Source: an uncultured Methylococcaceae bacterium
GTDB taxonomy: Bacteria; Pseudomonadota; Gammaproteobacteria; Methylococcales; Methylomonadaceae
Assembly: GCA_903934035.1 (NCBI GenBank)
Contig: CAIZMK010000038.1
Coordinates: forward strand, 1 to 32,949
Direction of reading: 5' to 3'
DNA length: 32,949 bases
The notes under the pieces were generated by a model. It was not told where the DNA came from, searched no databases, and saw nothing but the letters and a program-made list of their open reading frames with translations. Below, piece by piece: positions 2,136-32,949 of this stretch. Within the stretch, counting starts at the first letter, position 1. The number at the start of each line of letters is the position of its first letter. The position numbers and the translations under genes are program-made.

Positions 2136-3019
2136 AAAGTAAATCTAAAGTAGTGATCGATTAACAAAGCCGCAAACAGCACGGTGATATAAACTATCGA
2201 ATAAACAAAAGTTTTCATGGCGGTTTTATTATCTTTATTACGCATCATGAGTAAGGCGTAAAAAATAAAAACCAGATCCAACAATAAAGCTGATACCCCG
2301 TAAATTAGACCACTCATACCGGTTAAATAAGGCAATAAAGTCACTAACAGTAATAAGATGGTATAGAGCAATATTTGTAGTCGTGTAAATTCCACACCAT
2401 GAGTCACTGGCAACATAGGAATATTCACTTTAGCGTATTCTTCGCGCCTAGCTATCGCTAATGCCCAGAAATGTGGAGGCGTCCACACAAACACAATCAA
2501 AGCTAGTAATAAGCCATCAGCGTTAACGTCTCCAGTCATAGCACACCAACCTAATAAAGGCGGCGTGGCGCCAAATAAACCACCGATGACTATGTTTTGT
2601 GGCGTGGCTCTTTTAAGATAAAGTGTGTAAATGATCGCGTAGCCAAATAGTGATAAAAAAGTCAGTATTGCAGTTAAGGTATTCACCAATAACACCAAAA
2701 TTAGCATAGCACTCACCCCTAATACCAAGGCAAAACTAAGTACATTGGTGGCGCTTAACTCACCCATAGGCAAAGGACGTTTTTCGGTTCTAGCCATTTG
2801 CGCATCGGCTTTTCTATCAATAAAATGATTTATTGCAGCTGCTGATGAAGCGGCCAGCCCAATGCCAATGATGCCATATATAAACGGCTCCGCTTCAGGC
2901 ATGCCTGGTACAGCTAATAACATACCCACCACGGCAGTAAAAAGCATTTCCGCAACCACGTTAGGTTTACAGAGAGTAAGGTAGTTCTTCCATGAAAGCA
3001 CAGAGGATTTGCTAGGCAT
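2132..3019 (-). CDS. cyoE: Protoheme IX farnesyltransferase (heme O synthase)
   Basis: Heme O synthase is an inner-membrane UbiA-family prenyltransferase that joins farnesyl diphosphate to heme B, making heme O for terminal oxidases. The 295 residues match the family's usual length. The prenyltransferase motif is clear: NHFIDRKADAQMARTEKRPLP (N-x3-D-x3-D), followed by YTLYLKRATPQNIVIGG and FGATPPLLGW. About nine hydrophobic segments fill the rest. The gene is the first of a two-gene operon with ybiB and diverges from the M16 pair across a 98-base gap. Its usual neighbours, the terminal oxidase subunits or ctaA, are not here. The start ATG at 3019 has only a weak upstream GGAA. Confidence 0.96.
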   Translation of the reverse strand: MPSKSSVLSWKNYLTLCKPNVVAEMLFTAVVGMLLAVPGMPEAEPFIYGIIGIGLAASSAAAINHFIDRKADAQMARTEKRPLPMGELSATNVLSFALVLGVSAMLILVLLVNTLTAILTFLSLFGYAIIYTLYLKRATPQNIVIGGLFGATPPLLGWCAMTGDVNADGLLLALIVFVWTPPHFWALAIARREEYAKVNIPMLPVTHGVEFTRLQILLYTILLLLVTLLPYLTGMSGLIYGVSALLLDLVFIFYALLMMRNKDNKTAMKTFVYSIVYITVLFAALLIDHYFRFTL

Positions 3020-3117
3020 TGTTTAATAGGTTCCAACTTTTAAATTATTGTATAGAATACCGTGAACTATAGTTTATTGAAATAGTCCGACGCGCTTACT
3101 ACCATGAAAGAGGCTTT

Positions 3118-4470
3118 ATGAATCATCGCTTACTATGCACCGCTCTACTATGTTTACCCGCACTCACTTGCCATGCCGAAACAAAAGTAGCTGAACACAT
3201 TTTAGCTAATGGCTTAAAAATCTTAGTAAAAGAAGATCACCGATCACCCATAGCCGTGACTCAGGTCTGGTATAAAGTCGGCTCTAGTTATGAGCCAGGC
3301 GGTATTACTGGTGTTTCGCACATGCTAGAACACATGATGTTTAAAGGGACAGACAAGCATGCGGCCGGTGAATTTTCTCGCATCATTGCTGAAAACGGTG
3401 GTGATGAAAACGCTTTCACTGGACAAGATTACACCGCCTATTTTCAAACTATGGAAGCAACTAGGCTTGCAGTCAGCTTTGAATTAGAAGCCGATAGAAT
3501 GCGTAATTTGCATTTACTGCCCGAAGAATTAAAAAAAGAACTGCAAGTAGTAACTGAAGAACGCAGAATGCGGACTGACGATAATCCACAAGCTAAAATG
3601 CAAGAGCAGTTTATGTCGGTGGCTTATTCCAACAGTAGCTATAAACATCCAATCATTGGCTGGCCGTCAGATATTGCTAATTACACAGTCGAAGATTTAC
3701 AAGCCTGGTATCAACGCTGGTATGCGCCCAATAATGCTACTCTAGTCGTAGTTGGCGATGTACAGCCTGCCGCTGTATTTGAACTAGCCGATCACTATTT
3801 TGGCGAACTCAAAACCAGTGAAATTAAAGCCTTAAAACCGCAGTCTGAAATCGAACAATTGGGCGTACGCAAGATAACAGTAAAAGTCCCAGCAAAACTG
3901 CCGTCAATTGTCATGGGCTATAAAGTTCCGGTCTTAAAAACCGCGGCTAATGAAGAAGAAGTCTATGCTCTTGAAGTGCTTGCTGGCGTCTTAGATGGTG
4001 GCAATAGTGCGCGTTTATCGTCAGGTCTCGTACGCGGCAAACAAATTGCGGTATCTGCGGGTGCAGGCTATGAAATGGCGACCAGAATGTCTGGCTTATT
4101 TGAGCTAGAAGCAACACCCGCCGAAGGTAAAAATGTAGCCGACTTAGAAATTGCCTTGAAAGCAGAAGTCAAAAAACTACAACAAAGCTTAATCAGCGCT
4201 GAGGAATTACAACGTATTAAAGCTCAGGTTTTAGCCAGCGATATTTATCAACGTGATTCTAACTTTTATCAAGCTATGCAATTAGGCACCCTGGAAACTG
4301 TCGGTTTAGGCTGGCAAAAAATGGATGAATATGTACCTAAAATCAATCAAGTGACGGCAGAACAAGTGCAAAAAGTGGCCCAAAAATATCTCATTGAAGA
4401 TCATTTAAGTATTGCTTACCTAGAACCACAAACCATTACTACCAGCACTGCAAAAAAGGAAGCTCACTAA
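3118..4470 (+). CDS. M16 zinc peptidase, catalytic-type subunit, exported
   Basis: This 450-residue protein begins with a signal peptide (MNHRLLCTALLCLPALTCHA, probable cut after A20), so it acts in the periplasm. The inverted zinc motif HxxEH of family M16 is present as H68-M-L-E71-H72, and a third zinc ligand is expected at E147/E148 in VVTEERRMR. It is therefore equipped for catalysis. The second half-domain lacks the usual R-x6-Y substrate pair: the matching stretch reads VRGKQIAVS. AAGAGG-like AAGAGG at 3108-3113 is a good ribosome site for the ATG at 3118. Its stop codon shares one base with the start of the next M16 gene (TAATG). The substrate is unknown. Confidence 0.93.
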   Translation: MNHRLLCTALLCLPALTCHAETKVAEHILANGLKILVKEDHRSPIAVTQVWYKVGSSYEPGGITGVSHMLEHMMFKGTDKHAAGEFSRIIAENGGDENAFTGQDYTAYFQTMEATRLAVSFELEADRMRNLHLLPEELKKELQVVTEERRMRTDDNPQAKMQEQFMSVAYSNSSYKHPIIGWPSDIANYTVEDLQAWYQRWYAPNNATLVVVGDVQPAAVFELADHYFGELKTSEIKALKPQSEIEQLGVRKITVKVPAKLPSIVMGYKVPVLKTAANEEEVYALEVLAGVLDGGNSARLSSGLVRGKQIAVSAGAGYEMATRMSGLFELEATPAEGKNVADLEIALKAEVKKLQQSLISAEELQRIKAQVLASDIYQRDSNFYQAMQLGTLETVGLGWQKMDEYVPKINQVTAEQVQKVAQKYLIEDHLSIAYLEPQTITTSTAKKEAH

Positions 4471-5807
4471 TGCGTATTCATCTTTTAAAATCTTTAGGTT
4501 TAAATACTAACAGCGCCTATCTATTAGCTATTATATTATTGGCAACGAGCCAATCAGCAACTGCCGCAGCAAAAATTGAACACTGGCAATCTACGCAAGG
4601 TAGTCCTGTTTATTATGTACATACCGAAGGTCTACCAATGGTCGATATTCAGTTGGTTTTTGATGCCGGCAGTGCGCGTGATAATGAAAAATTCGGCTTG
4701 GCCTCACTCACTGCAGGATTATTAGAGACTGGTGCAGGCTCTTGGAATGCAGATGATATAGCCCAACGTTTTGAAAGTGTCGGTGCAAAGTTTAGCGCTG
4801 GCAGCTCTATCGATATGGCAACCTTGTCTTTACGCACCTTAACCGAAAAACCGTTATTTGATAAAGCTTTGGACACGATGCAAGTCATCTTAGCTAAACC
4901 TAACTTTAAAGAAGCTGACTTTAAGCGCGAAAAAAACCTTACTTTGGCTGGATTAAAGCAACAAGAAGAATCTCCCGGCGCATTAGCCAGCATTGCTTTT
5001 TACAACACCCTGTATGGCAATCATCCTTATGGCCATCCTGATTCAGGCGTTATTAAAACAGTGGCTGCACTTAAAAGCATTGATCTACGACATTTTTATC
5101 AGCAGTATTATGTTGCCGCTAACGCTATGGTTGTAATCGTTGGTGACTTATCTAAAGAACAAGCAGAACTTGCCGCAGAGAAACTGCTTTCTGGATTGCC
5201 GGCAGGTAAAAAACCAGAGCCGCTACCTGAAGTGACCATGCCCTTAACGGCAAGCGTTCAACATACCCAGTTTCCGTCCACACAAACTCATGTATTGGTT
5301 GGCTTGCCAGGTACTTATCGTAAAGATCCTGACTATTTCGACCTTTATGTAGGCAATCATATTTTGGGTGGCAGTGGCTTGGTCTCTAAGCTGTTCAATG
5401 ACATCAGAGAAAAACGCGGCTTAGTTTATGGCGTATCTAGCGCCTTCGTTCCTTTAAAAAAACCCGGACCGTTTTTGATCAGTTTACAAACACGTAATGA
5501 TCAAACTACCGAAGCACTACAAGTACTTAATAAAACCTTGGCGGATTACATTGAACTAGGCCCTAGCGAAGAAGAGCTCCTTGCCGCCAAAAAGAATATC
5601 ACTGGCGGTTTTGCGATGCGCTTTGATACTAACAAGAAACTGGCCAGCTATGTTGCCATGATTGGTTTTTATGATATGCCTTTAGATTACCTAGATACTT
5701 TCCAGGCAAAAGTAAACGCTGTAACCGTTGCATCAATCACTGACGCGCTAAAACGCCACGTTAATTTATCCTTATTACAAACTATTACTGTAGGAAAATC
5801 AGAGTAG
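4470..5807 (+). CDS. M16 peptidase-family subunit without the zinc motif, exported
   Basis: This 445-residue partner of the preceding gene starts with a signal sequence (MRIHLLKSLGLNTNSAYLLAII..., cut near ATAA). At the place of HxxEH it reads LASLTAGLLETGA, so the zinc site is missing and this chain cannot be catalytic alone. It keeps the C-terminal R/Y pair that grips the substrate backbone: FNDI-R313-EKRGLV-Y320. The first subunit has the reverse pattern. Two-chain M16B enzymes split this way are known, for example the Sphingomonas SPH2681/SPH2682 pair, so a heterodimer is the natural reading. It overlaps the first gene by one base upstream and rsmD by one base downstream (TAGTG). Confidence 0.92.
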   Translation: MRIHLLKSLGLNTNSAYLLAIILLATSQSATAAAKIEHWQSTQGSPVYYVHTEGLPMVDIQLVFDAGSARDNEKFGLASLTAGLLETGAGSWNADDIAQRFESVGAKFSAGSSIDMATLSLRTLTEKPLFDKALDTMQVILAKPNFKEADFKREKNLTLAGLKQQEESPGALASIAFYNTLYGNHPYGHPDSGVIKTVAALKSIDLRHFYQQYYVAANAMVVIVGDLSKEQAELAAEKLLSGLPAGKKPEPLPEVTMPLTASVQHTQFPSTQTHVLVGLPGTYRKDPDYFDLYVGNHILGGSGLVSKLFNDIREKRGLVYGVSSAFVPLKKPGPFLISLQTRNDQTTEALQVLNKTLADYIELGPSEEELLAAKKNITGGFAMRFDTNKKLASYVAMIGFYDMPLDYLDTFQAKVNAVTVASITDALKRHVNLSLLQTITVGKSE

Positions 5808-6361
5808 TGTCCAATAAACTTAGAATCATTGGCGGCGACTGGCGCAGTCGTTGCATTAGCTTTGTCGATGTACCTGGCTTAAGACCCACACCCGCGAGAG
5901 TTAGAGAAACCGTATTTAATTGGTTACGCAATGATATTATCGGTAGTCGTTGCCTAGATTTATATGCAGGTAGTGGAGCCCTAGGTTTTGAAGCTGCCTC
6001 TAGGGAAGCTAAGTTAGTTGTTCAAATTGAAAACAATAGCTTGGCCTGCAAAGCCTTAAAAGAAAACGCCAATCACTTAGCTGCAACCCAAATAAAAATG
6101 CTACAAAGCGATGTATTTCAATATTTGGCAGGCGCAGCTCAAGAGTTTGATATCGTCTTTATTGATCCCCCTTTTGCAATGGATCTAGCTGTAAAAACCT
6201 GTCTATTACTAGAAACTAACCACTGGCTAAGTAAACATGCAAAAATCTATGTAGAAACAGAAAGCACGTTAATCTTAACGGGATTACCTGAAAACTGGCA
6301 ACTATTGAAAAGCAAAGTCGCGGGAGAAGTCGGTTATCATTTATTCGGAAGAATGGACTGA
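5807..6361 (+). CDS. rsmD: 16S rRNA (guanine966-N2)-methyltransferase
   Basis: RsmD methylates N2 of G966 in 16S rRNA during 30S assembly. The 184-residue protein shows the family start (LRIIGGDWRSR then LRPTPARVRETVFNWL), SAM motif I DLYAGSGALGFEA at 51-63 and the catalytic motif DPPF at 120-123 in DIVFIDPPFAM. The length is close to E. coli RsmD (198 residues). The start is GTG, overlapping the TAG stop of the M16 gene by one base, and homology begins immediately after it. It is the last gene of the M16-M16-rsmD run. In many proteobacteria coaD follows rsmD, but here an AT-rich gap and an unrecognised gene follow. Confidence 0.94.
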   Translation: MSNKLRIIGGDWRSRCISFVDVPGLRPTPARVRETVFNWLRNDIIGSRCLDLYAGSGALGFEAASREAKLVVQIENNSLACKALKENANHLAATQIKMLQSDVFQYLAGAAQEFDIVFIDPPFAMDLAVKTCLLLETNHWLSKHAKIYVETESTLILTGLPENWQLLKSKVAGEVGYHLFGRMD

Positions 6362-6746
6362 ATAATGCTCTATCCAAATTTAGGAAATATTTTTCCTGGA
6401 AACATAGTTATCTGCACAAGTAAATGTCGTGCTATTTTAGCTGGGATGACGATTTGTGTAGATACGGATATTTTATAAACCCAATACTTCTGCTTTTTTT
6501 TGTTGGTTTAAGTTGTTTAAAATCTAAAAAACCGAACGCTATAAATAAAGCCTAATCTCAGCCTTATTCAGATGATTGATTAATTCAAATCCACGTATAT
6601 TCTTGTAGAAACAAACTCATAAACTTATGTTTTGTATTGTTTTATCTAAATACTGAGCTCTATCAATAGCTTTCTCTTTATTTATATAACTCATTGAATT
6701 AATTTTAGAAAATATTTAATTATATACCATTGCAACAGGTAATCTT
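6362..6746. other. AT-rich gap between rsmD and the 571-aa orphan
   Basis: I see no gene in these 385 bases. A small hairpin AGGAAA/TTTCCT with a four-base loop lies at 6382-6397, about 20 bases after rsmD. It has no clean T-run and is only a weak terminator candidate. At 6452-6469 the stretch TTTGTGTAGATACGGAT resembles the terminal repeat of the MITE family at 23340 and 31021 and may be a relic. The rest, especially 6590-6740, is very AT-rich and could hold the promoter of the next gene, but no convincing -35/-10 pair stands out. Confidence 0.5.
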
Positions 6747-8462
6747 ATGTCACTAAGTTATGAAGAATGGACAAACATGTTAAACAGCTATAAGCATGTG
6801 CATACTTCTTTTTTTGGAGGAAGACCTTACTATAAAAAGACAGTGGTACTTGCAAAACTTGATGCTGCTATAAAAGCTCAAACAGTAGAAACCATTCGCT
6901 TTGAATGTAATGTATTTTTCATGAAAAACCAGCCAGGTTCCACAGATTACAGAAAATACAGTACTCTTGTAAAGGATGTACAAGACAGATTCAGTTTCAG
7001 CAATAGTGCCGCTGAAAACCCAAGAAGCTCATCTTTTAATACATCATTTATAAAAATGGAAAATGTATTTAATTCTTCATTTGATGATAAAAAAGAAATT
7101 AGACCCTTTGCTGGCAAAGGTTATAAAGATGAAGAATTGCGGACGCTTGTCTCCGCACTTGAGCAAAAAGATCCTGAACTTGTTAAGCGCTTCAAAGACG
7201 CATTCAAAAACTATACTTTTTGTTATGGAACTTCTGGCAAAGGAGGTGGCGTCGCTAAGGTGGCAAATATTATGGCTCGCTCGATAGCACAAGGCGTCAC
7301 TTTAAAAACACGCAATCCATTAAAACGTGAATTTACCGAAGAAGGCGAACTCATAAACACTGGTGACACTAGAGGAGAGATTACTGGAGAAAGCCAAGCT
7401 TTTAGTAGTCGTGAAACAGATGAGGAAGGCAATCATAAGCCAGTAACTGCAATATTCCAAGCAGGAACCCGACAACATGTTCAGCGTTCGAATAATTTTC
7501 AAATGATGGATATGTATTATGGCGATGCCGGCAATGAAATTAAAGAAGATGGTAAATGGGTAGCATGGGCAGGCAATCTTGGGGAAAAAGCCGACCCAGA
7601 CATTTTAGAATTCGTTATGTATGCGATAAAGTTGAAATTTTTACCAGAGTGGGAAATTTATAATACTTGGGAAAAGAAACCTGGTCCAGGTAAAAATCCT
7701 TATGAAGTATTTCGCTCTATGCTTAAAGGTCCAGCATATTATACCGATCCCATTACCGATAAAATGTATGGAGACGATGATTGGTACCACTTAAAAATGT
7801 CAGCGACCAAAGAAATATCTAGAATTATTCGCTGGGGCATAGGTGAATACGGAGGTAACCTAATATTTGATGGTGCTGATGTTTATTACGACCAAGTTTT
7901 CAATAAAAAAGACAGATTAGCTGACACTGATCTTGAGGCAAGAGTATTATTTCAATATTTCAATTTAAAGGTTTCTCCAGAGAATACTACCCCACATGGC
8001 GAGTCTAAAGCTAATTGGGGGCGGGGTAACGGTACAGTGACATTTCATTGGCATGGTAAAGAAACCACACCATCAAAATTGCTTTTTCTAACATCATGGC
8101 AGTTTTCAATATTTGCAGGAGAACAATTTTACAAATTGATACATCCCGAAAATTTTGCTCCGCCTTTAGAAAAATTTAAAGATACTAATTACTCAATTTC
8201 GACTGATCAAGCTGCTGATAATAAATTTAAGAATTTTGGTAGCAAGTCTTTTCAACCTGCAAATAGCCATACCAAGCCTTATACATTCAGCTCTGACAGT
8301 GATTCTGACTCCATTGTGGACATAATTAATAGCTTTAAAGTAGAGTATATGGATCTTTGGGATAGCTTCCAAGTGCTTCCTAAGGGAGTTACCCCAGAAG
8401 GAGTAGCCAATTGGCTAAATAACATGGCTATTCCTGAAAACGAGCCGGAAAATGAGCATTAA
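6747..8462 (+). CDS. Unrecognised 571-residue protein
   Basis: I do not recognise a family. The frame is long, has ordinary codon use and starts at ATG, with AACAGG about six bases upstream as a weak ribosome site. There is no signal peptide or membrane segment, so it should be cytoplasmic unless it uses a dedicated secretion route. Visible traits: a Lys/Phe-rich N-terminal part; a glycine patch CYGTSGKGGGVAKVA near residues 155-170 that does not fit a P-loop; a central part rich in Trp, Tyr and Gly (DDDWYHLKMSATKE, RWGIGEYGGNLIFDGADVYYDQ); HFHWHGKE-like FHWHGKETTPSK near 433; and a Ser/Asp linker SSDSDSDS near 515 before an acidic tail (PENEPENEH). It stands alone with long gaps on both sides and is AT-richer than its neighbours, which suggests acquisition by transfer. 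An effector, an enzyme or a phage-type protein cannot be told apart here. Confidence 0.8.
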   Translation: MSLSYEEWTNMLNSYKHVHTSFFGGRPYYKKTVVLAKLDAAIKAQTVETIRFECNVFFMKNQPGSTDYRKYSTLVKDVQDRFSFSNSAAENPRSSSFNTSFIKMENVFNSSFDDKKEIRPFAGKGYKDEELRTLVSALEQKDPELVKRFKDAFKNYTFCYGTSGKGGGVAKVANIMARSIAQGVTLKTRNPLKREFTEEGELINTGDTRGEITGESQAFSSRETDEEGNHKPVTAIFQAGTRQHVQRSNNFQMMDMYYGDAGNEIKEDGKWVAWAGNLGEKADPDILEFVMYAIKLKFLPEWEIYNTWEKKPGPGKNPYEVFRSMLKGPAYYTDPITDKMYGDDDWYHLKMSATKEISRIIRWGIGEYGGNLIFDGADVYYDQVFNKKDRLADTDLEARVLFQYFNLKVSPENTTPHGESKANWGRGNGTVTFHWHGKETTPSKLLFLTSWQFSIFAGEQFYKLIHPENFAPPLEKFKDTNYSISTDQAADNKFKNFGSKSFQPANSHTKPYTFSSDSDSDSIVDIINSFKVEYMDLWDSFQVLPKGVTPEGVANWLNNMAIPENEPENEH

Positions 8463-21226: not shown

Positions 21227-21253
21227 GTAGGGGCGTATGCAATACGCCCCTAC
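21227..21253. repeat. Perfect palindrome, bare core of MITE family 1
   Basis: GTAGGGGCGTA and TACGCCCCTAC form a perfect 11-base stem around TGCAA. The arms match the core of the elements at 23204, 31083 and 32867. It lies between two convergent genes and could help end transcription on both strands, though no T-run is present. Confidence 0.7.
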
Positions 21254-21295: not shown

Positions 21296-23062
21296 TCATT
21301 TCTTAAGCAGTTTGCTACGGACAAGATCTACTAACTTCATTGCAAAATCCAGCAATGGTTTTCGTTTAACGACAATAAGGTAAGCCATCAAACCTAATAT
21401 TAAGCCATCAAATAAGCGAGAGAATGCCGAGGGCGCTTGTTGCTGGGCAACAATGGCAGCAGCCGCTTCTGATGGCTTAACAGGCGCCGCTTGCACAGCA
21501 ACTTTAGAGGGCTTGAATTCGGCTTTTAAATCGGGCAAACCTAAACTACCCCAGGTATCATAATCTTGCCAAATCGGGTACTTACCCTTCCATAAAGACT
21601 TGGAAAAGTAGGGAGCCAAACTCATTCCATGTGCTGAAGGAATACCTTTATCATCTACAAAGCCTTTGTAAACCACTAAACTAATATCACCGCCTTCGCC
21701 ATGACCATCGGTAGTAAATGATTTCTCAACGTGATCATGAAACATCCAGATACCTTGACCAAAACTATTTAAACCATCATCAACACCGCTTAATGATAGA
21801 TCAATACGTTGAGCAGGAACCATGCCATGGACATCACGCTGTATGTAAGAACCTGGGCCATTATCAACGCCATCATAATGAGTAATAGTCGGTTTATGAC
21901 CATGAATGTGCATTGCTAATGATTCGGTATGACCATTTAAAACACGAAGCTTAACCTCTTGATTTTCTTCCATGTGTATCAAAGACTCCCTTAAAGTATA
22001 AGGAAAAGATCGACCATTAAGCATGAAATAATCATCAGTGGCATTAGTGATGTTGTATTCAGTATTCATGTGTTTGGCAACCAAACGCGGATCATTGGCT
22101 GATCGTGCTACTAGCTCATGTAATTCTTTATCAGCAGACTGATAATGCAAATCATATTCTCTGGCATATTTTTCCAGTACAGCCACAGACGGATGACGAA
22201 CTTGACCTGCACCTACGTTTAAAGTTTGCACCCAATTATTAGGACGATTTTCTTCAACGACGAAAATCCCTTGCAAACCCATAGGAATATGAGTGTGTGG
22301 CTGAACATGGCAATGATAATACATGGTGCCAGGCTGCCTAGGCTTAATAACATAAGTTTTACTTTCGCCAGGCATGGTATCCATATTACTGGTTTGTGCG
22401 ACGCCATCATTACCAGCCCCGCCGTGATTCATAAAAGGATGATCAATACCATGCAAATGAATAGAATGCGGCAGATAATGGGTATTTTCTAAAATGATCC
22501 AAACCACATCATCTTGCTCAACACGAATAACCGGGGACGGTACCCGTAACATCGGATTAGCTTCCAGCTCATATAAACTTTTAGTCGACATATCACGAGT
22601 TTTAGGCGCATAAACCCAAAAAGTCGGCTGTATGCCTGGAGCAATATCATAGGTCGTGGTCGGATCTTTCATGTCAGGCGTATGACCATTAAGTTCCACA
22701 ACTTCTAACTTGATAACAATTTTATCTGGATCGCCATCACCGTCGATATCGTCGGATACAGTTACCGCATCGGCTGCCAATTGCGTTTGCATTAAGGTAT
22801 CCATAGAAATACCATTGGTGCCTTTAACAAAAGCGGCAATATCTGCTGGATTATCTGGATTACAAAGCTTAGATTCTTGTATGGCGACACCATCAATTGA
22901 TTGTGCTTTACGCCAAGCGGGATCTGTAAATTCTGAACAAACTTCTTCTATCGGCCCAGCATCAACCTTGATTGAAGGAGGCAAGTCAGTAGCAGCCTGA
23001 CTTCCTATGTTTATCAAGAGCAGTGCAGTAGCACCGACATAGGTAATAAATTTCTTACGCAT
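21296..23062 (-). CDS. Exported multicopper oxidase, T1 copper site only in the first cupredoxin domain, C-terminal membrane anchor
   Basis: Multicopper oxidases couple one-electron oxidation of a substrate to reduction of oxygen to water. The ATG at 23062 has GAGG eight bases upstream and opens a signal peptide (MRKKFITYVGATALLLINIGSQAA); an ATG 21 bases earlier is less likely. Residues 25-140 are an unusual N-terminal region with two Cys and a Ca-loop-like DIDGDGDPD near 105. Copper motifs: H202-L-H204-G, then H250-C251-H252-x3-H256-x4-M261, a complete T1 site; then H385-I-H387-G-H389, and H442-D443-H444, where Asp replaces the T1 Cys. This is the layout of type C two-domain oxidases such as the Nitrosomonas europaea enzyme, but those are much shorter. 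The C-terminus has a membrane segment (GLILGLMAYLIVVKRK). The substrate is unknown. Confidence 0.87.
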   Translation of the reverse strand: MRKKFITYVGATALLLINIGSQAATDLPPSIKVDAGPIEEVCSEFTDPAWRKAQSIDGVAIQESKLCNPDNPADIAAFVKGTNGISMDTLMQTQLAADAVTVSDDIDGDGDPDKIVIKLEVVELNGHTPDMKDPTTTYDIAPGIQPTFWVYAPKTRDMSTKSLYELEANPMLRVPSPVIRVEQDDVVWIILENTHYLPHSIHLHGIDHPFMNHGGAGNDGVAQTSNMDTMPGESKTYVIKPRQPGTMYYHCHVQPHTHIPMGLQGIFVVEENRPNNWVQTLNVGAGQVRHPSVAVLEKYAREYDLHYQSADKELHELVARSANDPRLVAKHMNTEYNITNATDDYFMLNGRSFPYTLRESLIHMEENQEVKLRVLNGHTESLAMHIHGHKPTITHYDGVDNGPGSYIQRDVHGMVPAQRIDLSLSGVDDGLNSFGQGIWMFHDHVEKSFTTDGHGEGGDISLVVYKGFVDDKGIPSAHGMSLAPYFSKSLWKGKYPIWQDYDTWGSLGLPDLKAEFKPSKVAVQAAPVKPSEAAAAIVAQQQAPSAFSRLFDGLILGLMAYLIVVKRKPLLDFAMKLVDLVRSKLLKK

Positions 23063-23555
23063 ACAAACTTCCTCAGAAAACATTCGGTTGAGAATGAGAC
23101 GCCGCCAAAGCGGATTATTTATTAATTTTTTCTATTTTAACGCAATAGTTTACTTAAGTCTTTTATGAACGTTAAAAGCGTCATTATAGGGTGGTGAAAA
23201 TCGTAGGGGCGTATTGCATACGCCCTAATAAAATATGCCCTATAAAATCGAACTTTCAATGTTCGGCGTATCCAATACGCCCCTAGGGTGTTTTTTTATC
23301 GTTTTCACGCAGATAAGAAACTTGTGTAGATACCGATGCCTCTATAGGAAATCCTATAAAAACTTTTAGTTTGTTATTGCTTCTTACCTTGATGTCAGCC
23401 CTCCAAAGAGCAAAATTAAACATTCACAAGCTAGTTCGTTATAAAGTAACACTAAGCTTTACCTATGCTTGTGGTTTTGAGATTATAGTCGGCATCGACT
23501 TAGCGATGAGGTTATCGACTAAGCCAATTTAATGACTTAAACATAACTCTAAATC
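23063..23555. other. Gap between the divergent copper oxidase and Hsp70-like genes
   Basis: The gap holds a left-truncated MITE (23191-23340, listed separately). The 130 bases next to the oxidase gene are AT-rich and should contain its promoter, with a weak minus-strand candidate TTGCGT followed by ATAAAT. The stretch 23341-23555 contains no gene or clear signal that I can support. Confidence 0.45.
23191..23340. mobile_element. MITE family 1, left-truncated copy
   Basis: Starting at GTGGTGAA, this copy runs through GTAGGGGCGTATTGCATACG, an AT-rich middle, ACTTTCAATGTT, GGCGTATCCAATACGCCCC, GGGTGTTTTTTTATCG and AAGAAACTTGTG to the terminal repeat TGTGTAGATACCGATGCC. The same order of motifs occurs at 31016-31209. 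The left end is missing: bases before 23191 do not match the other copies. No transposase is encoded, so it would need one in trans. Confidence 0.7.
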
Positions 23556-26336
23556 GTGAAAAATCAAGCTCCTCAATATTTAGTCGGTATCGACTTAGGC
23601 ACCACCCATACCGTAGTCGCTTATGCCAGCACTGAAAAGTCAACAACGGATATCCATTTATTTCACATTGAACAACTAATCGCCTTAGGCGAAGTCTCTG
23701 CTCAACCCTTACTACCGTCTGTGCGCTACCATCCAGCCGCTGGAGAACTATCAGCCGCTGACATAGCCTTTCCGAGCTACCATCAAGAAACAGAAATAGT
23801 CGGCGAAACGCCCATCATTGGGCTAGCTGCACGGTTATTAGGTGCGAAAAGCAAAGGTCGTTTTGTGACTAGTGCTAAGAGCTGGTTATCACACCCGTCT
23901 ATCGATCACAGTGCCGACATTTTACCCTGGGGCAGCGCTGATGATGTTAGCAAGGTCTCACCTATTGCCGCTAGCGCCAGTTATTTAGCCCATATCCGCA
24001 CTGTTTGGAGCCATCAATTTCCCAATGCACCTTTAGAGCAACAAACTCTAGTCATTACGGTACCTGCTTCTTTTGATGAATCTGCTAGGTCATTAACACT
24101 GGAAGCCGCTCGCATGGCGGGTCTTAAGCAAGTTCGCTTATTAGAAGAACCGCAAGCCGTTTGTTATGACTGGCTAAAACGCAATAGCAACACTATCAAT
24201 CAAGCTTTAGCCCAAGTCCATTTATTATTGGTTTGCGATGTAGGCGGTGGCACTACTGATTTAACATTGATTAAAGTAGAATCCGGCATAGATGAACCCA
24301 AACTAACGCGCATTGGTGTTGGCGATCATTTAATGCTGGGCGGCGATAATATTGATTTAGCCTTAGCGCATTTAGCAGAACAGCGCTTAATTAATGGTGA
24401 GCAACGCTTATCAGCGGCTGATTTATCACAGTTACTAGAGCAATGTCGTTGCGCCAAAGAACGATTACTCGCTGAAGATGCTCCAGAGCAAATGACCGTA
24501 ACCTTACTAGGTGGAGGTTCCAAACTCATAGGCGGCTCCCGTTCGGTCGTATTAACACGAGACGAAGTCAGAAGCATTGCCTTAGATGGCTTTTTCCCCT
24601 TATCTGGATTAGACGACCTACCCGACCGTAAGCGTAGTGGCGTTGTTGAATTTGGCCTGCCTTATGCAGCAGAACCAGCCGTCAGCAAACATATCGCCGC
24701 GTTTTTAAAGCTGCATGCCGCAGCCGCCAATGACGCCTTAAAAGGTGAAGGCAGAGTACCGGACGCCTTACTCCTTAACGGCGGTGTATTTCGTAGCCAA
24801 CCTATTACCCAACGCCTAATACAGTTACTGAACTCTTGGAGTACCAAACCACCGGTTTTACTGGAAAATAAACATCCTGAACTAGCCGTCGCTTTCGGTG
24901 CCGTAAGTTATGCAATGGCTAGGCGTGATAAACAACTCAAAATTGGTGGTGGTAGCGCACGCAGTTATTTTTTAATCATTGATACCGAGCACAACGCGGC
25001 TCAACAAGGTATTTGCATATTACCTAGAGGCAGTGAAGAAGGCGAAGAAGTTATCTTAAAAGATCGGCATTTTGCCTTGCGCTTAGGTATGCCTGTCCGT
25101 TTTCATCTTGCTTCTATCAGCAGTGATGCAATCTTTAAAGCCGGAGATGTGACTGAGATCAATGATTTATTTCATTCCTTGCCGCCACTGGCTGTAGCGC
25201 TTGAGGGCGACAGCAACACTCAGGATACCGAGGTGATTGTACAATTAGCAGTCACTCAAACAGAAGTTGGTACCCTTAAAATACAATGTGTTGCAATCAA
25301 TAACAATGATCAACGCTGGAATGTAGAATTTCAAATCCGCAAACAAGGCCGATCAAATTTACCTCAAGATACCAGCCTACCTCCCCAATTTGATGCTGCC
25401 GTTGCCAGCCTACAAAGCATTTTCGGCTCAAAATCTAAAGATATAGATCCCAAAGCCGTCAAAAATCTACGTGCTGATTTAGAAAAACAACTAGGCTGCG
25501 CACGTACAGAATGGAACACGCCCTTACTCAGAGCATTATTTGCAAACTTACTAGAAGGCTCAAAATATCGTAGACGTTCAGAAAGTCACGAACGCGTCTG
25601 GTTAAGTCTAGCCGGATTTTGCTTACGCCCTGGCTTTGGCTATCCACTCGATGACTGGCGAGTAGAACAACTTTGGAAAACTTACAGTCAAAGCATCCAA
25701 TTTGTTAATGACACTCAAAATTGGACAGAATGGTGGACACTCTGGAGACGCATTGCAGGGGGCTTGTCAAGTGCAGCCCAAGAACAGCTATTTGCAGACA
25801 TCTCTAAATTTATCAACCCTGCTGCTGCCAGACAAGCAGGTGTCGCCAAACTTATAAAAAACCGTGGCTATGATGACATGGTACGTCTTGCTGGCGTTTT
25901 AGAACGCTTACCCATCGATAAAAAAATTCAACTGGGCGAATGGTTATTAAAGCGCTTACAAAAAGCTGGCGAGCCTAACCAAACGTGGTGGGCAGTTGGG
26001 CGCATTGGAGCCAGACAACCTTTTCATGGCAGCAGCCATAATGTAATTCCCGCCGACAAAGTCGCAGACTGGTTAACTCAAATGCTAGCTGTCGATTGGA
26101 AAAAAATACCGCAAGCAGGCTTCGCGGCAACCCTCATTGCTCGCTTAAGTGGAGATAGAGTGCGTGATATTGATGACACACTACGCGAACAAATCATCGC
26201 TAAACTCAAACTAAGCAAAGCACCCGCCTCTTGGATAGACATGCTAGAACAAGTTAAACAGTTAGACGAAAAAGAAGAGCAGTTAATTTTTGGTGAAGCA
26301 TTGCCACCCGGCTTAAAGCTAATTGATTTGCCTTAA
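23556..26336 (+). CDS. Hsp70-family protein with long C-terminal region (DUF3731 type)
   Basis: The first 460 or so residues form an Hsp70/actin ATPase: phosphate 1 loop VGIDLGTTHTVVAYAS (D13, G15, T16, T17), TVPASFDESAR, LLEEPQAVCYDW, phosphate 2 loop CDVGGGTTDLTLI (228-235) and the adenosine motif LLLNGGVFRSQPI near 405. A short beta-rich region follows, then a helical C-terminal part of about 300 residues with RRRSESHERVWLSLAGFCLRP and FGYPLDDWRVEQLW, which I associate with DUF3731. The length, 926 residues, is normal for this group and far beyond DnaK (about 640). No J-protein or nucleotide-exchange partner is nearby. The start is GTG with a weak ribosome site. Client proteins are unknown. 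Confidence 0.88.
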   Translation: MKNQAPQYLVGIDLGTTHTVVAYASTEKSTTDIHLFHIEQLIALGEVSAQPLLPSVRYHPAAGELSAADIAFPSYHQETEIVGETPIIGLAARLLGAKSKGRFVTSAKSWLSHPSIDHSADILPWGSADDVSKVSPIAASASYLAHIRTVWSHQFPNAPLEQQTLVITVPASFDESARSLTLEAARMAGLKQVRLLEEPQAVCYDWLKRNSNTINQALAQVHLLLVCDVGGGTTDLTLIKVESGIDEPKLTRIGVGDHLMLGGDNIDLALAHLAEQRLINGEQRLSAADLSQLLEQCRCAKERLLAEDAPEQMTVTLLGGGSKLIGGSRSVVLTRDEVRSIALDGFFPLSGLDDLPDRKRSGVVEFGLPYAAEPAVSKHIAAFLKLHAAAANDALKGEGRVPDALLLNGGVFRSQPITQRLIQLLNSWSTKPPVLLENKHPELAVAFGAVSYAMARRDKQLKIGGGSARSYFLIIDTEHNAAQQGICILPRGSEEGEEVILKDRHFALRLGMPVRFHLASISSDAIFKAGDVTEINDLFHSLPPLAVALEGDSNTQDTEVIVQLAVTQTEVGTLKIQCVAINNNDQRWNVEFQIRKQGRSNLPQDTSLPPQFDAAVASLQSIFGSKSKDIDPKAVKNLRADLEKQLGCARTEWNTPLLRALFANLLEGSKYRRRSESHERVWLSLAGFCLRPGFGYPLDDWRVEQLWKTYSQSIQFVNDTQNWTEWWTLWRRIAGGLSSAAQEQLFADISKFINPAAARQAGVAKLIKNRGYDDMVRLAGVLERLPIDKKIQLGEWLLKRLQKAGEPNQTWWAVGRIGARQPFHGSSHNVIPADKVADWLTQMLAVDWKKIPQAGFAATLIARLSGDRVRDIDDTLREQIIAKLKLSKAPASWIDMLEQVKQLDEKEEQLIFGEALPPGLKLIDLP

Positions 26337-30439: not shown

Positions 30440-30871
30440 CTATTTAGAAGCCTTATCTAACCGCATCACTGAACCATAACTGGTATCTCTATCAAAATTA
30501 TCCCATACATACGCTGGAGAAATGATAGGCTCAGTCGGTAATGGCAGAGTTATTAAGTCAGCAACACCACATCCCGTTCTGCCTAGCATATTAAAGATGC
30601 CTTTAAAAAATCCACCCACCAAGCCATAAAAGAAATTACTATGATTCATGGTATTAATCACATTTTTGGGTATTTCAAGTGAAGCTGTTGTTAAATTAGC
30701 GAAAGCATTAAGCCCTTTATCAGCAATCTTTTCGCCATAACTTAAGGTTGGCGAGACCGATGCTGTATTGACAGGATTTGATAGCATAAAACTATCAGCC
30801 TGAATCAGCGGTGTATAGACGATAAGCCAAATAGCACATAGCGCCATAGAAAAATACCAATTTTTATTCAT
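30440..30871 (-). CDS. Exosortase-associated protein, TIGR04073 type
   Basis: From the ATG at 30871 the protein has 143 residues. It starts with a signal peptide (MNKNWYFSMALCAIWLIVYTPLIQA) and continues with the family wording: SYGEKIADKGLNAFANLTTASLEIPKNVINT, SNFFYGLVGGFFKGIFNMLGRTGCGVADLITLPLPTEP and PAYVWDNFDRDTSYG. These were recognised from memory of the TIGR04073 family, small exported proteins found in genomes with exosortase/PEP-CTERM sorting; their function is not known. GAGGTGA directly before the ATG is a strong ribosome site and decides this start over one 108 bases upstream. No exosortase or PEP-CTERM gene is in the window. It is surrounded by mobile repeats. Confidence 0.85.
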   Translation of the reverse strand: MNKNWYFSMALCAIWLIVYTPLIQADSFMLSNPVNTASVSPTLSYGEKIADKGLNAFANLTTASLEIPKNVINTMNHSNFFYGLVGGFFKGIFNMLGRTGCGVADLITLPLPTEPIISPAYVWDNFDRDTSYGSVMRLDKASK

Positions 30872-30925
30872 ATCACCTCGACTATTTTTAATAAAAGGCT
30901 TTTGTTTGATGATAAAGACACCCCC

Positions 30926-31000
30926 CAATGTCATTAAGTTAAGGACCAGGGGAAAGCAAATAATCTGTAGGGGCGACAAATCCTTAACTTAATGACATTG
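30926..31000. repeat. Perfect 20-bp inverted repeat around a 35-base centre
   Basis: CAATGTCATTAAGTTAAGGA (30926-30945) and its exact complement (30981-31000) enclose 35 bases that include GTAGGGGCGAC. Runs of C flank both sides (CACCCCC and CATCCCCCC). It begins 55 bases upstream of the TIGR04073-type start codon. It could be a very small transposable element, joined insertion-sequence ends or a regulatory stem. Confidence 0.7.
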
Positions 31001-31015
31001 CATCCCCCCTTTGTT

Positions 31016-31209
31016 GCATGGGTATCTACACAAATAATTGTTAGCATTCCCACGCGAGAACGATAACATTGTGGTGAAGATCGTAGGGGCGTATTGCATA
31101 CGCCCTTATAAAATAAGCTCTATACCATTGGACTTTCAATGTTGGGCGGCCCCTACGGTGTTTTTTTATCGTTTCCACGCCGTTAAGAAACTTCTGTAAA
31201 TACCTATGC
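31016..31209. mobile_element. MITE family 1, complete copy
   Basis: The left end GCATGGGTATCTACACAA and the right end, read inward as GGCATAGGTATTTACAGAA, are imperfect inverted repeats. Both are followed by a version of GCG..GAACGATAA. Inside lie GTAGGGGCGTATTGCATACG, ACTTTCAATGTTGGGCG and a second CCCCTAC arm. The whole element is about 194 bases, AT-rich between the arms, and encodes no transposase. It ends 24 bases from the stop codon of the next gene. Confidence 0.72.
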
Positions 31210-32797: not shown

Positions 32798-32949
32798 GCC
32801 ATAGGTAGCTACACAAATAATTGTTAGCCTTCCCACGCAAGAACGATAACATTGTGGTGAAGATCGTAGGGGCGTATTGCATACGCCCTTATAAAATAAG
32901 CCCTATAAAATGGGACTTTCAATGTTGGGCGTATGCAATACGCCCCTAC
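32798..32949. mobile_element. MITE family 1 copy, cut by window end
   Basis: It starts GCCATAGGTAGCTACACAAA and follows the 31016 copy nearly base for base through TAATTGTTAGC, CCCACGC, GAACGATAACATTGTGGTG and GTAGGGGCGTATTGCATACG. The full palindrome core with CGCCCCTAC follows. The right terminal repeat lies beyond the window. Confidence 0.72.

Follow-up and report, generated by a model that had tools for sequence, protein, structure and literature searches.

Introduction

Homologues of pmoD have been noted near multicopper oxidase (MCO) genes (PMC6189053; PMC6688271), and PmoDs with a Cx8M motif are commonly encoded close to them (PMC6189053). For gammaproteobacterial methanotrophs, with Methylococcus as an example, pmoD is reported to lie outside the pmo operons (PMC6189053). 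One homologue of M. capsulatus, MCA2130, adjoins an MCO gene and is down-regulated in the absence of copper (PMC6688271), a response that fits a joint role with pMMO. The M. capsulatus transcriptome paper PMC4831470 makes no mention in its main text of "multicopper", MCA2128-2130 or pmoD. The activity of pMMO is lower in isolated form than in whole cells (PMC6189053), and type B and type C classes of MCOs have been described (PMC3192119).

This study concerns an MCO encoded on a 32,949-nucleotide stretch of DNA (the window) from an uncultured Methylococcaceae bacterium. Its two best matches among solved structures are 3g5w, a blue copper oxidase of Nitrosomonas europaea, and 2zwn, a metagenome laccase, both of which we take to be type C two-domain MCOs. 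Copper nitrite reductases also consist of two cupredoxin domains, with the T1 copper in domain 1. Methanotrophs need and encounter much copper.

Results

Domain organization and copper ligands

The reading frame was found to be translated without stops into 588 residues (Table 1). An in-frame ATG further upstream, at 23083, would give 595 residues, but the start at 23062 was retained because homologues such as L033 have that Met as their first start codon. In the Pfam scan, multicopper-oxidase models alone matched, with Cu-oxidase_3 and Cu-oxidase_2 above cut-off, and the NCBIfam models for nitrite reductase, CopA, ascorbate oxidase, CueO and laccase scored far under theirs. Two specific identities were rejected: a copper nitrite reductase (TIGR02376, 41.6 against a cut-off of 296.3 bits, with all eight trinuclear histidines present) and a three-domain CueO/CopA (TIGR01480, 33.8 against 478.95; CueO model, 23.3 against 525).

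Table 1. Features of the MCO gene and its product, in window coordinates
Feature	Coordinates	Strand	Basis
Type C two-domain multicopper oxidase, clade A, 588 aa	21296..23062	-	Open frame, Pfam, closest solved relatives 3g5w/2zwn
Signal-peptide-like N terminus, residues 1-24, boundary approximate	22991..23062	-	Hydrophobic stretch to SQAA, by eye
N-terminal extension, residues 25-113, with Cys42 and Cys67	22724..22990	-	Both Cys in 109/109
DIDGDGDPD calcium-type loop, residues 105-113	22724..22750	-	D105/D107/D109/D111/D113 in 109/109
Cupredoxin domain 1 with T1 site, residues about 114-275	22238..22723	-	Domain start by eye
HSIHLH, residues 199-204: T1 His199, trinuclear His202/His204	22451..22468	-	109/109; roles by homology
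HCHVQPHTHIPMGL, residues 250-263: trinuclear His250/252, T1 Cys251 and His258, axial candidates Met261/Leu263	22274..22315	-	Homologue conservation and register against 3g5w/2zwn
Inter-domain linker, residues 276-341	22040..22237	-	Between the two stretches matching 3g5w/2zwn
Cupredoxin domain 2, residues about 342-480, without T1 site	21623..22039	-	Second 3g5w/2zwn stretch
His385-x-His387, trinuclear centre	21902..21910	-	109/109
His442-Asp443-His444: trinuclear His pair, Asp at T1 Cys position	21731..21739	-	109/109
C-terminal hydrophobic segment, residues 547-565, then basic tail	21368..21424	-	Kyte-Doolittle mean 1.83 over 19 residues

Conservation was read from 109 distinct homologues, which remained of 145 matches aligned over more than 400 residues once identical ones had been dropped. 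All 109 retain the T1 ligands H199, C251 and H258, the four HxH pairs (H202/H204, H250/H252, H385/H387 and H442/H444) that make up the eight histidines of the trinuclear centre, D443, the loop aspartates 105/107/109/111/113, and C42 and C67. The invariance of all eight trinuclear-centre histidines is what an O2-reducing MCO would show, and the enzyme probably reduces O2. H258 is the likelier T1 histidine because H256 is variable, being kept in 95/109 homologues. Position 261 is a Met in 107/109 and position 263 a Leu in 108/109; in the profile alignment it is L263, not M261, that pairs with the Met in the "GMWG" segment of 3g5w and 2zwn. Judging from these alignments, the axial T1 ligand could be either Met261 or Leu263, and a Leu in that role would point to a T1 site of high potential.

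The structural relatives were retrieved with a profile built from 25 members of the MCO family, which matched 193 PDB sequences. Among these, 3g5w came first (E 1.4e-40) and 2zwn second (E 7.6e-37), both matching in two stretches, and the match of domain 1 to both spans about residues 173-275. The window MCO shares with them a T1 site in domain 1, an Asp where domain 2 would otherwise have its T1 Cys (D443 aligns to their Asp), and the four His-x-His pairs. In contrast to both, it carries an additional N-terminal extension of about 90 residues with the invariant calcium-type loop and two Cys, a longer inter-domain linker and a C-terminal hydrophobic anchor; the loop at the axial position is one residue shorter, and there is a cupredoxin partner gene. 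The extension lies outside the best-scoring stretch of every one of the 60 PDB matches listed, so that a third cupredoxin domain within it appears unsupported. It is a trait of the whole MCO family rather than of the window protein alone, and its DIDGDGDPD loop, going by the motif, may bind calcium.

AlphaFold2 models were of low confidence, with a mean pLDDT of 37.3 for the full-length protein (shallow alignment, 75-96% identity to the window protein) and of 41.5 for the core, residues 98-482 (shallow alignment, 85-98% identity). Foldseek nonetheless ranked 2zwn (E 1.5e-10) and 3g5w (E 3.5e-10) at the top for this low-pLDDT core model, with a TM of just 0.24.

At the C terminus, 84/110 family proteins contain, within their last 90 residues, a 19-residue window with a Kyte-Doolittle mean of at least 1.6. 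A further 23/110 score 1.18-1.60, L020 is truncated, and two proteins of family f8 score 0.74 and 0.42. The MCO is probably exported and membrane-anchored.

Most of the original prediction withstood this comparison. The type C layout, with H199/C251/H258 in domain 1 and D443 replacing the Cys in domain 2, was borne out in 109/109 homologues, and a T1 ligand set elsewhere in domain 2, named there as one contrary outcome, was not seen in that domain. The length of about 588 residues and the N-terminal extension with its loop were likewise confirmed, and the hydrophobic C-terminal segment supports the suggested membrane anchor. The proposed T1 set, HCH...H...M, stands in its Cys and His ligands, which are invariant, but not in M261 as the axial ligand, since L263 is the residue that aligns with the Met of 3g5w and 2zwn.

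Distribution of the MCO family

Members of the family were found in 300/311 genomes of the host's order (E 1e-20), in 11/369 genomes of a class-wide draw (E 1e-40), of which 4 belong to the same order, and in 2/299 genomes of a phylum draw (E 1e-40). By their titles, the best 80 of 208 named loci, which were the ones kept, are from Methylococcales members or an "uncultured proteobacterium"; they include Methylobacter tundripaludum SV96, Methylovulum miyakonense HT12, Crenothrix polyspora and Methyloglobulus morosus. A plasmid search returned 259 records, none of which covered 80% of the MCO query; all 15 of those listed carry a multicopper oxidase domain annotation. No relative of the MCO was found in a scan of viral contigs. 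The genome of the window also encodes a second paralogue (type B, 55% identity) at G000:C256:2701-4161 (L147), with its own cupredoxin gene directly behind it.

Co-occurrence with copper membrane monooxygenases

The window's genome encodes the MCO on contig C38, pmoCAB on C56 and a pmoD-cupredoxin pair on C40, in agreement with the methanotroph host presumed from the start. In the class draw, PF02461 (AmoA/PmoA) was detected in 11/369 genomes, 9 of which are among the 11 MCO carriers. Outside the host's order, this draw has 5 genomes with both, 2 with the MCO but not PmoA, 2 with PmoA but not the MCO, and 356 without either (Fisher p 8e-9, with kinship ignored). The exceptions are G338 and G522, with PmoA and AmoC and no MCO, and G354 (99% complete) and G473 (87% complete), with the MCO and neither AmoA nor AmoC. 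G354 has a PmoD-MCO-cupredoxin arrangement (L144) although AmoA and AmoC were undetected, and this could be a relic, belong to a divergent copper membrane monooxygenase (CuMMO) or have another use.

Within the order, PF02461 was found in 240/311 genomes: 239/300 with the MCO, leaving 61 MCO-bearing genomes with no match, as against 1/11 without it. AmoC (PF04896) is present in 5/11 MCO-less genomes, the PF02461-positive one included, and three of these five are less than 90% complete. A co-loss statistic from PF02461 alone is consequently overstated, and a genome can have a CuMMO with no MCO detected. When either AmoA or AmoC is counted in family f7, CuMMO genes occur in 13/13 MCO-bearing and 1/5 MCO-less genomes (p 0.0016, kinship ignored); AmoC was sought in 19 chosen genomes only, which within f7 were the five MCO-less ones and G048. 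The MCO family thus occurs mostly together with a CuMMO, with exceptions.

A co-evolving cupredoxin partner

A single-domain T1 cupredoxin of 185-357 residues, with the first start codon taken, was found in 25/26 genomes searched. By eye, its N terminus is rich in Met and His and its C terminus hydrophobic; no Met-rich segment was seen in the MCO itself. In the numbering of the A-type partner of the window's genome (L159), the T1 ligands H111, C155 and H160 are present in 33/33 homologues and M165 in 32/33. Two of four partners pass a Pfam cut-off (Copper-bind or Cu-oxidase_2), and the PDB matches of one cupredoxin are marginal (two-domain laccases, E 0.07 or worse).

Trees of the two proteins for 32 pairs place the same 16 rows in clade A in both (support 86/82 and 81/87). 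The Mantel r of these pairs is 0.856, with a maximum of 0.264 over 500 shuffles. When the A and B partners of a genome are swapped, r falls to 0.64-0.80 for one genome at a time and to 0.41 for all four. Species relatedness adds to the Mantel r, and the swap test is the more telling of the two.

Gene neighbourhoods

The order pmoC-pmoA-pmoB-pmoD-MCO-cupredoxin was found in families f8 (L136, L137), f7 (L151) and f18 (L139). In f145 (L138) the arrangement is A-B-D-MCO-cupredoxin, with the PmoC match absent, and in f3 (L168) PmoD-MCO-cupredoxin-VTT-like lies 3.2 kb upstream of pmoC-pmoA on the same strand. Same-strand clusters of the MCO with pmo/amo genes therefore occur in f3, f7, f8, f18 and f145; in f18 and f145, the AmoA-like proteins stay under both the AmoA and the PmoA curated cut-offs.

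Frequencies were taken from 26 MCO copies, namely the fetched neighbourhoods minus the A-type ones of the window's family and minus near-duplicates. Adjacent on the same strand are the cupredoxin in 25/26, PmoD in 15/26 and the VTT-like gene in 10/26, shares which are not unbiased rates because some loci were fetched for a known nearby pmoA. The only copy lacking an adjacent cupredoxin, L025, has just 1.3-1.5 kb of flank. A pmoA is located within 6 kb of the MCO in 6/26 copies, and none within that distance in 20/26. The VTT label refers to a Pfam match slightly under cut-off (31.5 against 33.9 bits).

For five PmoDs the best PDB match is the solved PmoD 6cpd, with E values of 8.9e-20 (L136), 2.8e-13 (L151), 5e-12 (L139), 6.8e-12 (L153) and 4.6e-4 (L159, the window's genome). 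The CuA-forming Cx7MxH motif, sought anywhere in the protein, was found in 0/25 distinct PmoD homologues, and a Cx8M motif somewhere in 5/25.

At L142 (genome G631, about 2347-6986), an MCO-cupredoxin pair lies, by eye, beside norCB-like and nor accessory-like genes; this genome has three PmoA/AmoA copies.

The locus in the lineage of the window

In families f3, f4, f5 and f6 the clade A MCO sits in a PmoD-MCO-cupredoxin arrangement. In the window's genus, 7/7 A-type cupredoxin loci read have PmoD-cupredoxin-VTT-like without an MCO; that of the window's genome (L159, G000:C40, 6600-8799) encodes PmoD, the A-type cupredoxin and a VTT-like gene. Conversely, a cupredoxin, PmoD or pmo gene was seen in the flanks of 0/80 named MCO-A loci (the best 80 of 208), flanks that measure at least 3 kb on both sides in 55 loci and less than 500 bases on one side in 6. 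From these two results, it is most likely that, in the window's lineage, the MCO gene moved out of the cluster. The window copy itself exhibits no linkage to CuMMO genes.

Several other features of the surroundings were recorded. A divergent Hsp70-like gene (926 aa, window 23556-26336), scoring far under the DnaK and HscA cut-offs, lies upstream of the MCO, and such a gene is found at most two genes upstream of MCO-A in 27/70 eligible named loci. The REP-like near-palindromic repeat GGGCGTATTGNATACGCCC matches the genome exactly at 112 forward and 121 reverse sites (0 for the backwards control); its copies in the window are located at 21231-21249 and 23207-23225, which flank the MCO gene, and at 31087-31105, 32870-32888 and 32927-32945. 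Positions 30440-30979 encode an exosortase-system-associated TIGR04073 protein (70.7 bits, cut-off 50).

Discussion

We estimate a probability of about 0.5 that this type C MCO belongs to a copper module of CuMMOs of the pMMO/AMO type, in which it would serve the oxidation or loading of copper. The fullest form of the module would comprise PmoD, the MCO, the single-domain T1 cupredoxin and the VTT-like membrane protein, beside pmoCAB in some lineages. Copper handling is favoured because the family is linked to pmoD, the cupredoxin and pmo/amo genes. What the sequences contribute to this proposal is the T1 His/Cys/His set, the four His-x-His pairs, the T1 motif of the partner, the linkage and the parallel phylogenies.

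In the proposed mechanism, the MCO would be a trimer like its solved relatives, and its T1 copper would take in either electrons or the Cu(I) bound by the Met/His-rich cupredoxin. They would pass to the trinuclear centre, where O2 would be reduced to water. This putative cuprous oxidase activity would serve to adjust the oxidation state of the copper in the periplasm, which PmoD and the cupredoxin may hand to the CuMMO. The MCO gene would have moved off the cluster in the window's genus, with a cupredoxin of the matching type still in the genome.

Several observations count against such a module: the window copy is unclustered, there are CuMMO genomes without the MCO and MCO genomes without a CuMMO, PmoD is missing at 11/26 copies and pmoA at the 20/26 mentioned above, the CuMMOs of f18 and f145 fall below the cut-offs, the PmoDs lack Cx7MxH, and the MCO has no Met-rich segment.

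A more specific form of the copper module is offered tentatively, as we hold it to be rather doubtful: PmoD, the MCO and the cupredoxin could form a dedicated, ancestral, O2-driven complex for CuMMO maturation or redox control, which would fix the copper state during loading, or drain or supply electrons. If this were true, an ancestral complex would still be clustered with pmoCAB in some lineages and be dispersed in the window's genus and its relatives.

The ligand set of the partner leaves room for a different role, in which electrons drawn by the cupredoxin from a membrane donor would go on through the MCO to O2, as an electron or oxygen sink beside the CuMMO with copper as just a cofactor. 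Its full H-C-H-M set is that of the usual electron-carrier kind, the hydrophobic C-terminal segments of both proteins (by eye in the cupredoxin) are in line with such a route, and so is the pairwise co-evolution. However, the Met/His-rich N terminus of the cupredoxin, seen by eye, and the linkage to pmoD point to copper handling instead, and no recurring cytochrome gene was noticed by eye among the neighbourhoods listed, where a c-type-cytochrome-like gene near L149 and the norC-like gene near L142 are single cases; we regard electron flow as somewhat unlikely. That the enzyme is a general periplasmic copper-detoxification oxidase of the CueO/CopA kind, merely common in copper-loving methanotrophs, is improbable. 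CueO and CopA belong to the same superfamily and may have Cu(I) oxidation in common with it, the copper demand and exposure of methanotrophs would suit such a role, as does the MCO fold, and RND-pump-like genes were seen by eye near two copies (L142 and L153). Against this stand the two domains in place of three, the CueO and CopA scores far under cut-off, the presence of PmoA/AmoA in 9/11 family-bearing genomes of the class draw, and the neighbourhoods listed, in which no recurring copper-efflux gene was noticed by eye.

A laccase-type oxidation of phenols or metals (Mn, Fe) is very improbable: 2zwn has been called a two-domain laccase and an axial Leu263 would point to a high-potential T1 site, but the restricted distribution and the linkage to CuMMO, PmoD and cupredoxin genes would be unexpected for such an enzyme. 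We give the least credence to a nitrite reductase or nitric-oxide-handling enzyme. The two-domain layout is common to copper nitrite reductases, and the norCB-like genes beside the pair in G631 (by eye) would fit, yet the MCO has, unlike those reductases, a full eight-His trinuclear centre (invariant in 109/109), the TIGR02376 score of 41.6 bits is set against a cut-off of 296.3, and nor-like neighbours were noticed at one locus only. Of the two roles suggested by the original prediction, copper handling is favoured by the family's linkage to pmoD, cupredoxin and pmo/amo genes, whereas nitrogen-oxide chemistry is disfavoured by the eight histidines and the TIGR02376 score.

With regard to published neighbourhoods, pmoD was found near MCO genes here, as in PMC6189053 and PMC6688271. 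In contrast to the arrangement given for gammaproteobacterial methanotrophs in PMC6189053, families f7 and f8 of the window's order exhibit pmoCAB-D-MCO-cupredoxin clusters. The cupredoxin partner goes unmentioned in the accounts of pmoD-MCO neighbourhoods in PMC6189053 and PMC6688271. The adjacency of PmoD and MCO has been published already; the pmoCAB-D-MCO-cupredoxin module was not found in the open-licence literature searched, which covers few subscription journals.

The copper and electron supply of pMMO and AMO is an open question. An oxidase that is near-universal in the order, linked to CuMMOs and accompanied by a cupredoxin of its own is a concrete candidate for a component that is still missing. 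Close relatives in records titled Methylobacter tundripaludum, Methylovulum miyakonense and Methyloglobulus morosus make cultured methanotrophs usable for testing it. CuMMO is a key greenhouse-gas enzyme, and the MCO probably helps to handle its copper or its electrons.
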